53,378 nucleotides of DNA, taken from contig CAJQNY010000058.1 of NCBI GenBank assembly GCA_905479805.1, positions 1 to 53,378 on the forward strand, read 5' to 3'. The stretch comes from an uncultured Arenicella sp. GTDB lineage: Bacteria; Pseudomonadota; Gammaproteobacteria; Arenicellales; Arenicellaceae. The position numbers and the translations under genes are program-made. Below are positions 2,677 to 10,850 of the stretch, piece after piece. A model generated the notes under the pieces. It was not told where the DNA came from and did no database searches. It saw nothing but the letters and a program-made list of their open reading frames with translations. Position 1 is the first letter of the stretch, and each line of letters opens with the position of its first letter.

Positions 2677-3978
2677 TCAACTCTTAATTTTCAATTCAAT
2701 TAGGGTTCGATTAAGCAGTATCAACGCATAGACGTAGGTGCAGCAGTTTCCTAATGCTACACCGACAAACAGCCCTTTAAGCCCAAACCAATGCGAGCCA
2801 AAGTAGCAGAGCGGTAGGTAGAAGATAAATAATTTCACCAAATTAATATAGACCGCTAGTTTAGGTTTGCCGAGCACGTTCATTGCGACATTTATCAACA
2901 CGACTACACCGCTTAGTCCGTAGCTCAAAGGCACGATCCAAAGGTACGTAACGATGGTGTTTTGCACGCTGGCCTCACTCGAAAATAGCGCAGCAATGGA
3001 GCTAGCGGACAGCAACAAGATAATGAAAATGAAGAGTTGAAGAACAACGATGAACCGAAAGGACAACTTGATGGCGTCATGTATGCGAACGAGTTGATTT
3101 GCACCCAAATTCTGGCCGATAAACATAGGCAGAGTCGATGACAGAGCAAACACTATCATGAGGCTAACTTGCTCAAGCCGAGTGCCGACCCCGTATCCGG
3201 CGACGGCATCAGTTCCAAATTTAGCAACCAATGTTGTTATTGCGGCAGCCGTTATCGGGACTATCGCGTTGGCTAATAAGGCCGGTATTGCGATCTGTAT
3301 CAACTGATTGAAATTGTCTTTGAAGTCCTTCCATGCCGGTACCGCCAAGAGCAAGAATTTTTCTCTTATCGCCAGTTCATAAAAGCCAAGAATTACTGAG
3401 AGAACGACAGCGAGCACAGTTGCTAAAGCGGCCCCTTGCATTCCCAATTCTGGGAATGGCCCTAAGCCAAAGATTAAGAGCGGATCAAGTATGATGTTGG
3501 TCAAGGTCATGGTGATAGCGATGCGTGCGGATGCCGCGGTATCACCCAACGCCCTGAAAGTACTGGCACACACCATGGAGTAGATGCTCAAGGGCGCGGC
3601 AAAAATCCAAGTGTGCATGTACTCTTTTATGTGTACAAGTGTTTCCGACTGGGCGCCTAGAGATACGAAGATAGTGTCCATTTGCCAGATCAAAATACCT
3701 GTACTCACAGCTGCGACGACAGTGGTGAGATAAAAGCCATCGGTAATTAGCCTTGCTGCTGATGAGAGCTTGCTGGCGCCAATAAGTTTTGACGTCAACG
3801 ATGAGATTGCCATTCCTAGACCAAGACCAAAACTGGTGATCACGGAAGCAATTGGAACAATGAAGCCGATCGCAGCTAACTCGTCCGTGCCTAGGTAACT
3901 GATAAAGTAACTGTCAACTAGGCCTAGGCTCATGATTGCGACGAGCGCATAGAGCATAGGTATTGTTAGCCGTACCAA
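2677..3978 (-). CDS. MATE family efflux transporter
   Basis: A 433-residue polytopic protein with about twelve hydrophobic segments and MATE-type sequence (RLTIPMLYALVAIMSLGLVD, then GLGLGMAISSLTSKLIGA, and ALGDTAASARIA at the end of the first half). MATE exporters swap Na+ or H+ for drugs or metabolites across the inner membrane. The only usual start codon in frame is the TTG at 3978. Yet the in-frame sequence upstream of it (QDIISKPIGPTL) looks like the conserved cytoplasmic segment that normally precedes helix 1, and there is no ATG, GTG or TTG between it and the in-frame stop near 4077. The true start may therefore lie upstream at a rare codon. It sits downstream of the MoxR-DUF58-transglutaminase genes on the same strand. 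Confidence 0.9.
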   Translation of the reverse strand: MVRLTIPMLYALVAIMSLGLVDSYFISYLGTDELAAIGFIVPIASVITSFGLGLGMAISSLTSKLIGASKLSSAARLITDGFYLTTVVAAVSTGILIWQMDTIFVSLGAQSETLVHIKEYMHTWIFAAPLSIYSMVCASTFRALGDTAASARIAITMTLTNIILDPLLIFGLGPFPELGMQGAALATVLAVVLSVILGFYELAIREKFLLLAVPAWKDFKDNFNQLIQIAIPALLANAIVPITAAAITTLVAKFGTDAVAGYGVGTRLEQVSLMIVFALSSTLPMFIGQNLGANQLVRIHDAIKLSFRFIVVLQLFIFIILLLSASSIAALFSSEASVQNTIVTYLWIVPLSYGLSGVVVLINVAMNVLGKPKLAVYINLVKLFIFYLPLCYFGSHWFGLKGLFVGVALGNCCTYVYALILLNRTLIELKIKS

Positions 3979-4101
3979 GGTCGGCCCAATCGGTTTACTA
4001 ATGATGTCTTGGCGGCGCTGAGACGTTCTTTCAGAATTTGTTGGCGAGCTGATACTTACCTCAGATAATACGTTTTATAAGTCGTTCTATGAGAGGTAGC
4101 T

Positions 4102-6636
4102 TTAGCTCTGTTGAGCTTCAAGAGTGGCTCTAGCTTGTTCCAGTGGTATGCCTGCGTTGCCGGCCGCTTTAATTGCGTCATCAGCACTAATGTTGCCTGC
4201 CGCGATTTGCCCCATTGACCACAGAAATGAAGAACGCCAACCGCTTCGACAATGCGCAAGTACTGGGCGTTGGGATTCATCTAGAGTCGATTTAAAATCA
4301 TCAACTAACATAGGTGGAAGGGGTTGCCCACCAACCATCGGTAGGTAGTGATAGTCCATGCCATGTTTTTCAGCCAATTGGCGAGCCTCTGAGGATTCGA
4401 GCTGGCCCGCTTCTTCTCCATCAGGTCGATTGTTAATGATGGTTTTAATGCCGGATTTGGCTAGCTCAGGAAAGTCGTTCTCTGTTAGCTGTCCTGCAAC
4501 GTAAAAGTCATCAGTAATATTTTTCATCTTTTTATTCTCGGCGTCTGGTTCTATAGACTGATCTTTGTATTTAGTAGGTTTAAGTTTAAACTGTTTTACT
4601 GCGCTCTTAAATGAATCAATGTTCGAATTCTCTTTTCCATATCTGATTTGCGAATAGCGGTCTGTAATGTCACGAATTTCCAGCGCTTGTTCTGGGAAGG
4701 CGATGGCCGCACGAACTCCAAACTCATTAGGAGACTCAGATAATGATTTAAACAAGTCGTGTCGTTTGAATTTTTGTAAGAACCTCAGAAATGCTTGTTG
4801 CGATTCACCTAACCTTGCTGCTTTGGGGATCAATTGCCAGAAATAGAACAACATCATGGATAACAGGCCAACAGACATAAGAATGACGAGGGTATAGACC
4901 GTGTTACGGCTTTCGAAGCCTAGTTGAGCCAACAGTTCTTTCTGAGCATTGAAGTCGTAATTAACTACCCATTTGTTCCACTGATACCCAAGGTTCCCCC
5001 AAGATTGTTTAATAGTATTCAAGGCTCGTCGCAAACCTGATGGATCTAGAAAGTCAGCAAGGGCTGTGCCATCGCGGCCGTTGGCTAATTCGCCTTGCTC
5101 CCAAATATTCAAAAATGCTTCCATGCCATGTTCAATACGAGTTTGATTCGCAGCAGCGGTTGGGTCCACACGATGCCATGCCCCATCTATCCAAACTTCT
5201 GACCAGGCATGTGCATCAAGGTATTTAACTTCGACGAAGTTCCCTACACTATTGGTTTCTCCGCCTAGGTAACCGACAACAATGCGTGCAGGGACTCCCT
5301 GCCAACGCATCAGGGTTGTGAATGCGCTTGCGTAGTGCTCGCAATACCCTTCACGAGTATCGAACAAGAACTCATCAAGAGGGTTTTCGATGAGTTCTGC
5401 TGGGTCTAAGGTATATTCAAAATCATTGTTTTTAAAATAATCAAAGGCTAACTGAACTAATTGGCGTGGGTCTCTGGTTTCCCTTCTCCATTTGCCGAGT
5501 AGTGCCGAAGTGCGCGCCTTGGGTGTGCTCCGTGTTGTTAAGAGTTTAGCGCGATTAATTGGTAAGCCTTCCACTACCGTTGGCGAATCGTAGGAAGCCC
5601 CTCGATACGCGAAGATGCCGTTAGTTGTTTGATCCTTGAATACCGAGTGATCATCGAGTTGAATGCCGACTTCAGGAGCATAGGCGTAATCTAAATAAGG
5701 CAAATATTGGTCGGCGCTATTTTCGTGGACGATAGAGTATCGAATGGGTTCTTGTTGATTATTTCTAAGTTCATTGGGTGATCTCTTGCGTAGCTTCGCT
5801 AGACGAAGTTCGGTAGCGCTAGGAGCTTGAACCTTCCAAGAAAAAAAAGATTCTTCAGTCATTACCTTTGAGCGCCAGTAAAGCCTACTCTTTACTGGGG
5901 GGGAACCATCGAACTCAGCTCTAAATGCTAATCTATCGTTAAAGGCTTGATTAGCAAATTCTCCCGCAACTAAAGAATTGCTGAGCTCTCTATTTGAATC
6001 TAGGCGATCTTGTGACGGTATGAACCCAAAATTTCCTTGGATTCTAGGGAATAGAAAGAACAGAAGAACAGCGAGAGGAAGGGCTCTTGCAATCAGGTTA
6101 AAAGATTGTTTTATCGAAGCGCTAAACGGCAGTTTGGTGGGACTTGAAATGATGAATAAAAGCGCGAGTACCACCACTACAAAAGCTGAAACTATAAGGA
6201 TAGTCGTCAGGGTGTTGTGGAATAAAAAGCTCGCAGAAGCGACAAATAATAGTAATAAACAGATAACGAAATAGTCACGAAGCGTGGCCGACTCCAAAAA
6301 CTTTAAGGTGACCAAGAGAACCAAAAAACTTATGCCGGCTTTTTGACCATTCCAGCCTCCGTAAAACCATAGGATCATAAGGATGCTCAAGACCGTGAAC
6401 AACATAATCACAATAATCGGTGGATTCTTCTTGTTGGTGATGATCAACCCAGTCTTAAGACACCAGACCAGTAGCGCGAGCGATGCGATGTAAGGGCTGG
6501 CAATAGCATAATGAGCCAATACCGCAACTAGGATGGTAGAAGAAAGTAATAGCAGAGTTCTTCGTCCCAGTGCATGAGCCGGAGGGGGCGTAGGCATGGG
6601 CGGAAGACTGATTTTGAATTTATTAAGCCAGTTCAA
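4102..6636 (-). CDS. TgpA-like transglutaminase (DUF3488) fused to a DUF442 phosphatase-like domain
   Basis: An 844-residue protein. Residues about 25-200 form a DUF3488-type membrane block of several helices. About 380-495 is a periplasmic transglutaminase-like domain with catalytic Cys432 (REGYCEHY), His476 (DAHAWSEVW) and Asp491 (HRVDPTAA). A further helix lies at about 580-602, followed by a DUF4129-like cytoplasmic tail. This is the TgpA arrangement, normally around 670-700 residues. Here the frame continues without a stop into about 140 more residues that match the TIGR01244/DUF442 family, with a phosphatase-like P-loop HCRSGWRS (Cys796). That domain starts at an internal ATG (Met704, base 4527) preceded by a purine-rich stretch, so it might also be made separately. 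The annotated start is a TTG just after an in-frame TGA; the ATG at 6597 is an alternative. It belongs to the MoxR-DUF58-TgpA module. Confidence 0.88.
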   Translation of the reverse strand: MNWLNKFKISLPPMPTPPPAHALGRRTLLLLSSTILVAVLAHYAIASPYIASLALLVWCLKTGLIITNKKNPPIIVIMLFTVLSILMILWFYGGWNGQKAGISFLVLLVTLKFLESATLRDYFVICLLLLFVASASFLFHNTLTTILIVSAFVVVVLALLFIISSPTKLPFSASIKQSFNLIARALPLAVLLFFLFPRIQGNFGFIPSQDRLDSNRELSNSLVAGEFANQAFNDRLAFRAEFDGSPPVKSRLYWRSKVMTEESFFSWKVQAPSATELRLAKLRKRSPNELRNNQQEPIRYSIVHENSADQYLPYLDYAYAPEVGIQLDDHSVFKDQTTNGIFAYRGASYDSPTVVEGLPINRAKLLTTRSTPKARTSALLGKWRRETRDPRQLVQLAFDYFKNNDFEYTLDPAELIENPLDEFLFDTREGYCEHYASAFTTLMRWQGVPARIVVGYLGGETNSVGNFVEVKYLDAHAWSEVWIDGAWHRVDPTAAANQTRIEHGMEAFLNIWEQGELANGRDGTALADFLDPSGLRRALNTIKQSWGNLGYQWNKWVVNYDFNAQKELLAQLGFESRNTVYTLVILMSVGLLSMMLFYFWQLIPKAARLGESQQAFLRFLQKFKRHDLFKSLSESPNEFGVRAAIAFPEQALEIRDITDRYSQIRYGKENSNIDSFKSAVKQFKLKPTKYKDQSIEPDAENKKMKNITDDFYVAGQLTENDFPELAKSGIKTIINNRPDGEEAGQLESSEARQLAEKHGMDYHYLPMVGGQPLPPMLVDDFKSTLDESQRPVLAHCRSGWRSSFLWSMGQIAAGNISADDAIKAAGNAGIPLEQARATLEAQQS

Positions 6637-6798: not shown

Positions 6799-7698
6799 TT
6801 AATCCCATAATGCTAAGACCGTTAAGCATTTATGAAAGTGGGTATTCCCCTGATCATACTCAATCGTATGGTTGGGCATTTCGAGTTGGAAACTCATTTG
6901 TTGTTTTTGCGCGTCTATAACCCAAAAACACAGCTGGCTTAGCTTGTCTTCGGTGCTCAGAGATTTCGGCAGGGAAAACCAACTGAGATTAACAGCAGTG
7001 CTGCTATGAGTTTCGTGTTGAATTGTAACGAGTTTCTGAGACTTGGCTAATGATGGCCAATGGATGTCGCGTAGTCTATCGCCTGGCTGATAGGGCTTCA
7101 TTCCACTGTAATCTTCGGCGCTAACGTTGGGCTTAGTTGCTTCATGCTCATTGTCTGATGAGAAATCGTCTATCATTGGCCGAGGGACTAAATCTAATGC
7201 TTGAGGGTAAACTAGGCAGCGTTGGCTGGGCATATACCGCTTGGTCCAACAAAAGAAAACTCCGATCGGATAATGTGATGTCAAAGTGATTGGAGAGCAA
7301 TTCAGGTATCCTCTACGCACGGTAGGGAGCTCAAGCTCTACCTCTTTTTCTACTGTTTCAGGTAATTCCAACAGCTGGTGGAATCCATCACAAACTAGCC
7401 ATACTGAGTTTCTTTTAGTTTGGCTTTGATTGTGCACGCGAATTGGGAATAAAGCAGTCTCGCCCAGAAAAACTGAATGAGAAGGCCTGCTACTCAAGCC
7501 AATTCCTATTACATTGTTATGTGTGTACAGCATGGCAACCATGCTGATTGAAGCCAAAATAAAGAGCATCATAAAGGCCGCTTGATTGTCGAACTTAACC
7601 GCTATTGCGAACAAAGCTATCAGAATCAAAGTAAAGTACCAACCAATGCGAGTAGGCAAGATATAGAGCTCTCTTCTTCCTATAGTGAATTCAGGCAT
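6799..7698 (-). CDS. DUF58 domain-containing protein
   Basis: A 299-residue protein with two N-terminal hydrophobic segments (about 17-57), a beta-rich middle, and the DUF58 signature YQPGDRLRDIHWPSLAKS near residue 205-220. DUF58 proteins are encoded next to MoxR ATPases and TgpA-type transglutaminases and are thought to act with them, probably as chaperone-assisted envelope factors; the biochemical role is not settled. Here the order MoxR, DUF58, TgpA is the canonical one, all on the minus strand, with a 71-base gap to moxR and about 160 bases to the transglutaminase gene. The length is normal for the family. Confidence 0.9.
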   Translation of the reverse strand: MPEFTIGRRELYILPTRIGWYFTLILIALFAIAVKFDNQAAFMMLFILASISMVAMLYTHNNVIGIGLSSRPSHSVFLGETALFPIRVHNQSQTKRNSVWLVCDGFHQLLELPETVEKEVELELPTVRRGYLNCSPITLTSHYPIGVFFCWTKRYMPSQRCLVYPQALDLVPRPMIDDFSSDNEHEATKPNVSAEDYSGMKPYQPGDRLRDIHWPSLAKSQKLVTIQHETHSSTAVNLSWFSLPKSLSTEDKLSQLCFWVIDAQKQQMSFQLEMPNHTIEYDQGNTHFHKCLTVLALWD

Positions 7699-7769: not shown

Positions 7770-8675
7770 TTATAAAATTTCAGTTTGATCGATAATGGTG
7801 TTAAGCGCAGTACTAGCATCAGAGCCATCGTTGCAATGCAATCGATGAGCCGCCGTGTATTGAGCTAATAATTTAATGTCTTCCGGCATGACTGAATCTC
7901 TACGTTCAATGAAGGCCAGTGCGCGTGCAGCTTGGAGCCATTGCAAGCCAGCGCGCGGGGACAAACCATTAACAAATTGACCACTGCTGCGTGTTTGGGC
8001 GAGTAGGCTCTGTAAATAGTCAATTATTGCATCGCTAACGTGAACTTCTCCAACTTGTGCGATGAGTTGAGTCACTTCGCCTGGTTCAAAAACAGATTGA
8101 TAGTCAGTGTTTTTGCCATGTTCATTTTTTAATAGCTGTCGTTCAAACTCGCTGTCCGGATAGCCCAAAGAAATTCGCATCAAGAATCTGTCGAGCTGAG
8201 ATTCAGGGAGTGGGAAGGTTCCGCTTTGCTCAAGTGGGTTTTGCGTCGCGATAACAAAAAATGGATCCGGCAACGCTATCTGCTGCCCTTCAATGGAAAC
8301 TTGTTGTTCTTCCATTGCCTGCAATAATGCGCTTTGTGTCTTAGGGGTTGCGCGATTAATCTCATCGGCAAGTAGCGTTGAGGTAAACATCGGGCCCTTC
8401 TTAAACTTAAACTTTTTGGTGTCTACGTCATAGATGGTCATACCGATAATGTCTGTGGGCAACAGGTCGCTGGTGAACTGGACTCTTTTGAATGGCAGTC
8501 CAAAAAGCGTAGCCAAAGCATGTGAAAGAGTGGTTTTACCTACGCCTGGGATGTCCTCAATGAGTAAATGACCTCGTGCCAATAAGCATATAGCTGATAG
8601 TTTTGTGGCGAGGGGGTTACCCAGAATTATTTCATTGAGCTGATCCAGTAAACTATCAATCTTTCTTTCACTCAT
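7770..8675 (-). CDS. MoxR family AAA+ ATPase
   Basis: A 301-residue cytoplasmic ATPase. The Walker A motif is DIPGVGKTT (residues 41-49), the Walker B is LLADEINRA (Asp104, Glu105), and the sensor-1 stretch is VIATQNPLEQSGTFPLPESQLDRF, which is diagnostic for MoxR proteins. MoxR ATPases are chaperone-like and help mature partner proteins, commonly encoded next door as here (DUF58 and a transglutaminase). The start ATG is preceded by AAGG at a good distance. The gene follows the channel gene by about 30 bases, so the two are probably co-transcribed. Confidence 0.95.
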   Translation of the reverse strand: MSERKIDSLLDQLNEIILGNPLATKLSAICLLARGHLLIEDIPGVGKTTLSHALATLFGLPFKRVQFTSDLLPTDIIGMTIYDVDTKKFKFKKGPMFTSTLLADEINRATPKTQSALLQAMEEQQVSIEGQQIALPDPFFVIATQNPLEQSGTFPLPESQLDRFLMRISLGYPDSEFERQLLKNEHGKNTDYQSVFEPGEVTQLIAQVGEVHVSDAIIDYLQSLLAQTRSSGQFVNGLSPRAGLQWLQAARALAFIERRDSVMPEDIKLLAQYTAAHRLHCNDGSDASTALNTIIDQTEIL

Positions 8676-10466: not shown

Positions 10467-10850
10467 TTATTTGCGTAGCTGAGATGTTTCTATAATCAAC
10501 AAAATCACAGATAGTAGGTTTGCGACTAGCGCACCCCCAGCTAATGAAACTATGCTAGCGGTGGCGCTATTGCCGAGTGTTTCAACGCCGTTAATGCCCG
10601 CAATGCCCCACACGATAGCCGCAGCGATTAACTGTAAGTCAGCCACTAGGCTGGCAGCCAATACAGTTGACCCAAAACTCGTCCGATCACCGAATTTAAG
10701 AAATGTGCAAATCAAGCTTACGATGATTGCGCCGAATAGCTCATAAGGGTGGTGATGTTCTGGGTCGGCGAAGTGGCCTACAAAAAAGCCGAAATTGAGA
10801 GATAAGGCTAGAATGATGAAGAATGCGAAAAGCACTTTCTCTGAGTTCAT
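10467..10850 (-). CDS. DUF6394-like small membrane protein
   Basis: A 127-residue protein with four predicted membrane helices: about 6-24, 36-52, 62-86 and 97-122. Between the first two is a polar, histidine-rich loop (DPEHHHPYELFG), followed by the KFGDRT stretch. It resembles the DUF6394 family, which in several gammaproteobacteria sits beside TrkA-domain channel genes, as here; this assignment is from memory of the family. No function is established. The proximity to the channel gene (about 55 bases) suggests a role in ion transport or its control. A GGGAG ribosome site lies eight bases before the ATG. Confidence 0.7.
   Translation of the reverse strand: MNSEKVLFAFFIILALSLNFGFFVGHFADPEHHHPYELFGAIIVSLICTFLKFGDRTSFGSTVLAASLVADLQLIAAAIVWGIAGINGVETLGNSATASIVSLAGGALVANLLSVILLIIETSQLRK

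Follow-up and report, generated by a model that had tools for sequence, protein, structure and literature searches.

A continuous tgpA-DUF442 reading frame in an Arenicella MAG very probably reflects an adjacent gene pair that lacks its intervening stop codon

On the reverse strand of the window, the whole 53,378-nucleotide stretch of DNA analysed here, one reading frame leads from a TgpA-type transglutaminase into a DUF442/TIGR01244 domain, which raises the question as to whether the two domains form a single protein or whether the stop between two ordinary genes is simply missing. The source assembly is a draft MAG (2.88 Mb in 280 contigs, 78% complete) and is placed in a genus with Arenicella-labelled MAGs. 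As the initial annotation had stated, no internal stop occurs throughout 6636-4102 on this strand, a frame recorded as 847 codons in the genome-wide search. The chosen TTG start lies near those chosen for tgpA of the relatives in the alignment, and in this frame no ATG occurs before codon 14. The features of the locus are collected in Table 1.

Table 1. Features of the tgpA-DUF442 locus, in window coordinates
Feature	Position	Strand	Description
Long frame spanning both domains	4102..6636	(-)	844 codons from TTG 6636; stop at 4104-4102
tgpA part	4582..6636	(-)	N-terminal hydrophobic segments, transglutaminase domain, hydrophobic segment 578-603, DUF4129; ends at KQFKL anchor
Linker, KPTKYKDQSIEPDAENKK	4528..4581	(-)	18 codons from KQFKL anchor to DUF442 Met; site of the tgpA stop in relatives
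Weak Shine-Dalgarno-like stretch, ACGCCGAGA	4536..4544	(-)	-3.0 kcal/mol with the anti-Shine-Dalgarno sequence; 8 bases ahead of internal ATG
DUF442/TIGR01244 domain	4102..4527	(-)	141 aa from internal ATG; equals the whole separate gene of relatives
MatE transporter gene, downstream	2677..3978	(-)	After DUF442 in 11/17 relatives with the pair
DUF58-like gene, upstream of tgpA	6799..7698	(-)	Label from initial annotation; conserved position beside MoxR and tgpA
MoxR-type AAA ATPase	7770..8675	(-)	AAA_3, AAA_lid_2

Searching the full protein with hmmscan places four domains above their Pfam cut-offs: TgpA_N (168.4 bits, residues 31-351), Transglut_core (74.5 bits, residues 387-492), DUF4129 (27.8 bits against a cut-off of 24.8, residues 615-676) and BLH_phosphatase, that is, DUF442 or PF04273 (89.7 bits against 26.1, residues 704-812). 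The NCBIfam model TIGR01244 is also matched, at 115.2 bits against a curated cut-off of 85.85, and all of these matches are far above chance expectation. The tgpA part thus contains TgpA_N, Transglut_core and DUF4129 in the order of the TgpA family; a TgpA-type protein should end soon after DUF4129, yet this frame continues for 159 codons beyond the KQFKL anchor. The tail of about 140 residues described in the initial annotation is present, with the motif HCRSGWRSS at its loop (C93-R-S-G-W-R98, numbered from the internal Met). Hydrophobic segments of the long protein fall within residues 22-199, in addition to the single later one listed in Table 1. Because the transglutaminase region of Pseudomonas aeruginosa TgpA is predicted to be periplasmic (PMC3507681), the DUF4129 and DUF442 tail, lying behind the last helix, should be cytoplasmic.

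The relatives were examined in a family set of 20 other genomes, 17 from the same genus and three from two other genera. A DUF442 protein of at least 45% identity was found in 19 of these; none was found in G016, whose tgpA match starts at base 2 of its contig. The two genes, tgpA and DUF442, lie next to each other on one contig in 17 of the 20 genomes, in the order seen in the window, and in none of these 17 is the frame fused. Contig ends truncate tgpA in G011 and G018 and DUF442 in G010, and the stretch read around DUF442 in G019 and G020 holds no tgpA match. Fifteen of the adjacent pairs have a tgpA frame that stops ahead of the DUF442 start, while in the remaining two it either stops out of frame a few codons into DUF442 (G013) or overlaps the start as ATGA (G011). 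Three pairs (G014, G012 and G010) keep both genes in one frame with a single stop between them, and in G007 and G009 the tgpA match extends past the first stop, so that a TAG lies inside the match. An 854-codon frame listed for G012 was considered as a second fusion and rejected, since one TAG inside it separates the genes.

Beyond the KQFKL anchor, the tgpA tails of the relatives measure about 1-17 residues, and this variation in length shows that the position of the stop drifts. The start of DUF442 is constant by comparison: the window's internal Met aligns with that of all 19 separate genes, such that a start Met is found in 20 of 20 sequences, the starts for this alignment being the nearest start codons as chosen by a script. 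The pair found in the Arenicella genus therefore resembles the window in gene order, in both proteins and in the DUF442 start Met, and differs in that the two genes are divided by a stop codon, accompanied in some pairs by a change of frame. The proposal that a fusion puts the C-terminal domain, as a phosphatase or sulfur-handling unit, under the control of the transglutaminase is not supported: in the genus, DUF442 stands as a gene of its own immediately after tgpA, with its start at the internal ATG pointed out in the initial annotation.

The wider neighbourhood is shared as well, with DUF6394, TrkA-like, MoxR, DUF58-like, tgpA, DUF442 and MatE genes following in this order in both the genus and the window; the DUF58-like, MoxR, TrkA-like and DUF6394 genes lie upstream in the relatives as far as their stretches reach. 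Of the two neighbours named in the initial annotation, MoxR is confirmed by its Pfam domains, whereas the protein labelled DUF58 has no Pfam match at 1e-3, its gene being nonetheless conserved in place. The DUF6394 protein (window 10467-10850), upstream of the TrkA-like gene, shows 62-76% identity in those relatives whose stretch includes it and is conserved more strongly than tgpA.

Searches beyond the family gave the same picture. The initial annotation had proposed that genomes with the same fusion be listed; with the full-length protein as query, matches were obtained in 252 of 398 genomes from the phylum, and among the matches listed the window alone shows a stop-free alignment that spans both domains. 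Up to two candidates were scored per genome, and the matches listed are the stronger ones, a fused protein being unlikely among the weakest; tgpA frames of at least 800 codons are included, and none of those listed spans both domains. The 21 family genomes likewise hold no stop-free alignment over both domains other than that of the window, and none of the 190 plasmid records with a match covers 80% of the query at a single place. One plasmid match, from Paracoccus, covers query residues 670-841 and begins ahead of DUF442. The fused architecture is therefore not conserved.

PF04273 itself matched 54 of 369 genomes of the class. Ten longer DUF442 frames were scanned: a metallo-beta-lactamase domain is present in one, an FAD oxidoreductase domain in seven, and two match only phosphatase-type models; the eight with a partner, of 533-594 codons, were accordingly rejected as TgpA fusions. 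The genes of the window have no tblastn match in an 821-codon frame of another genome (G111, L087), and twelve stretches around DUF442 outside the family hold no match to tgpA, MoxR or DUF58 beside it, one of these stretches matching nothing. Two other genomes of the window's genus encode a DUF442-FAD oxidoreductase fusion (L026:1465-3192 and L027:334-2013) that resembles the known SQR fusion. In another gammaproteobacterium, a frame joins DUF442 to a metallo-beta-lactamase domain (L065:496-2223); the roughly 130 residues preceding its DUF442 match no Pfam model, and as the frame was taken from stop to stop, part of it may be untranslated. The source genome also encodes a second, distant DUF442 protein on contig 162 (23395-23727, L002; 31% identity), and contig 152 adds a third match, which is weak. 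In the open-licence papers searched, none was found that mentions two or more of DUF442, TIGR01244, beta-lactamase hydrolase-like and transglutaminase.

Together, the comparisons make it very likely that the locus is an ordinary adjacent operon pair that lacks the stop between its genes in this one instance, whether through natural loss or through an error in the MAG. In this one-off case the tgpA stop, normally a few codons past KQFKL, is absent, and both genes, being in the same frame, would be read as one. The openness of the junction is modest in terms of chance: 30% of 20,000 shuffled linkers contain no stop, or about 10% once a factor of one third for frame is applied. Given so short a linker, and a chance of about 10% that it is both open and in frame, a fused frame in one genome of about 20 is unsurprising once the stop is lost. 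Two features count against the one-off loss. The linker is hydrophilic and could be a true linker, and the DUF442 domain has evolved somewhat faster than expected and has a Trp in its loop, signs that could point to a real fusion of greater age.

That the missing stop is an artefact of the sequence or consensus, with two separate genes in the organism and a stop misread or a base dropped or added in the linker, much like the error near 4530 that the initial annotation named as refuting a fusion, is possible, although an error is not the favoured account of the loss; it forms part of the one-off reading and is covered by the strength given to it above. An assembly of this fragmentation and completeness admits such errors, and no relative shares the fusion. 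Moreover, 10 of the 162 possible single substitutions in the linker create a stop, and the +1 frame reaches one 28 bases beyond the anchor. A second oddity lies within about 600 bases: homology to MatE extends upstream of TTG 3978 to about 4030, but this TTG, the sole in-frame candidate, falls within the conserved stretch, and the frame holds no ATG, GTG or TTG at 3979-4074, ahead of the conserved N-terminus. The MatE start may thus reflect an unusual start codon or a sequence error, and it calls for slight caution over the sequence around the junction, because of which the error was weighed up slightly and a selected fusion down slightly. Against an error, a non-standard start codon would account for MatE by itself, the linker has no homopolymer longer than five bases, and no stop interrupts the conserved length of the TrkA-like, MoxR, DUF58-like and MatE frames, which stand in the usual order.

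Whichever way the stop was lost, the activity of the C-terminal domain has to be considered in its own right, and the initial annotation had left it between phosphatase and sulfur handling. The phosphatase-like fold was confirmed. The 141-residue domain was modelled with a pLDDT of 95.4, and its best Foldseek match is NMA1982 (PDB 2f46; TM 0.89, 34% identity, rmsd 1.7 A), followed by a Shewanella DUF442 protein and then by protein tyrosine phosphatases (PTPs). NMA1982, the nearest solved structure by both sequence and fold, shares a C(X)4R loop with the window and has been reported as a phosphatase that uses this loop in PTP-type catalysis (PMC10716126), which counts against assigning sulfur transfer.

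The chemistry of a phosphatase, by contrast, is not favoured. The loop CRSGWR has six residues with Cys first and Arg last, Cys93 and Arg98 being invariant in all 19 relatives, but it is one residue shorter than the C(X)5R loop of PTPs. In a phmmer alignment, Pro69, also invariant in 19 of 19, is aligned with the catalytic Asp71 of NMA1982, with a gap close by in the alignment; since D71A removes only about half of the efficiency of NMA1982 (PMC10716126), the missing Asp is not conclusive. Turnover of NMA1982 on DiFMUP is measurable but very slow, with a kcat of 4.4e-5 per second (PMC10716126), as compared, across different substrates and different papers, to 4.89 per second for thiosulfate-to-cyanide sulfur transfer by the DUF442 domain of Cupriavidus SQR, a demonstrated sulfur transferase with the loop CRTGTR (PMC8533005). 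The DUF442 domain of Blh has also been shown to be a sulfur transferase (PMC5823870), and the score to TIGR01244 likewise argues against a phosphatase. We therefore consider a protein tyrosine phosphatase with phosphoprotein substrates unlikely, and predict that the domain is probably a rhodanese-like sulfur transferase, which would take up sulfane sulfur on Cys93 and then pass it to a thiol, for example glutathione.

A true, selected fusion confined to this lineage, in which the membrane transglutaminase would anchor such a sulfur transferase and the long form would be the only or main product, appears improbable. The open frame, the two intact domains and the hydrophilic linker would suit it, and DUF442 is found fused elsewhere, to metallo-beta-lactamase and FAD oxidoreductase domains. 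In Blh (DUF442-ETHE1) and the SQR-DUF442 fusions the domain is joined to another, as in the window's frame, but there it precedes its partner, whereas in the window it is C-terminal and lies behind the transglutaminase. The architecture was not seen elsewhere among the genomes searched. Furthermore, the internal ATG at 4527-4525 and the Shine-Dalgarno-like stretch ahead of it are kept, its pairing being stronger than in 10 of the 15 relatives that could be scored (15 of 19, as the pattern missed G015, G011, G019 and G020).

Rates of evolution were compared on a species tree of 14 taxa built from the DUF58-like, MoxR, TrkA-like and MatE proteins, with missing genes entered as gaps in the concatenation. 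G010 was left out for its DUF442 cut by a contig end, G006 for having too few genes, and G011, G018, G019 and G020 for lack of a full tgpA. The window's DUF442 branch is 1.65 times its reference branch, and its rate relative to the median of the other lineages is 1.55 (5-95% 1.07-2.34, 60 column bootstraps); the root-to-tip distance of the window is the highest of the 14 taxa for both DUF442 and TgpA. The residue after CRSG is Trp in the window, Met in 17 of 19 relatives and Thr in one. This mildly faster evolution and the loop Trp would fit a selected fusion, but they are weak hints of changed constraint, and the rate is not unique to the window, as G017 (1.93) and G015 (1.72) have higher DUF442 ratios and no fusion. 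Separate genes are also found in G001 and G014, the window's sisters on a tree with weakly supported inner branches (45-74 for several of them). A young but real fusion that has kept the old start, so that one gene would yield both a membrane-bound and a soluble sulfur carrier, is equally doubtful. A chimeric assembly at the junction was rejected, as both flanks keep the gene order of the relatives.

Provided that the sequence is correct, translation of tgpA would continue beyond the place of the missing stop and append DUF442 on the cytoplasmic side, after the final membrane helix and DUF4129. The initial annotation had also raised the idea that the domain might be made alone, and the alignment of its ATG with the start Met of the separate genes upholds this: the retained ATG 4527 may still yield a free DUF442 domain. 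In Pseudomonas aeruginosa, TgpA (PA2873) is likewise a transglutaminase membrane protein and is co-transcribed with the upstream PA2875 and PA2874, while the next gene, PA2872, is transcribed independently, and the available text of that source mentions no DUF442 domain for TgpA (PMC3507681).

The locus illustrates how, where the genes of an operon are tightly packed, a drifting stop codon can mimic a new domain architecture in a single MAG. Of greater use is the finding that tgpA and DUF442 are conserved neighbours in the genus; it suggests, but does not prove, that the envelope transglutaminase operon is linked in function or regulation to the handling of sulfane sulfur.
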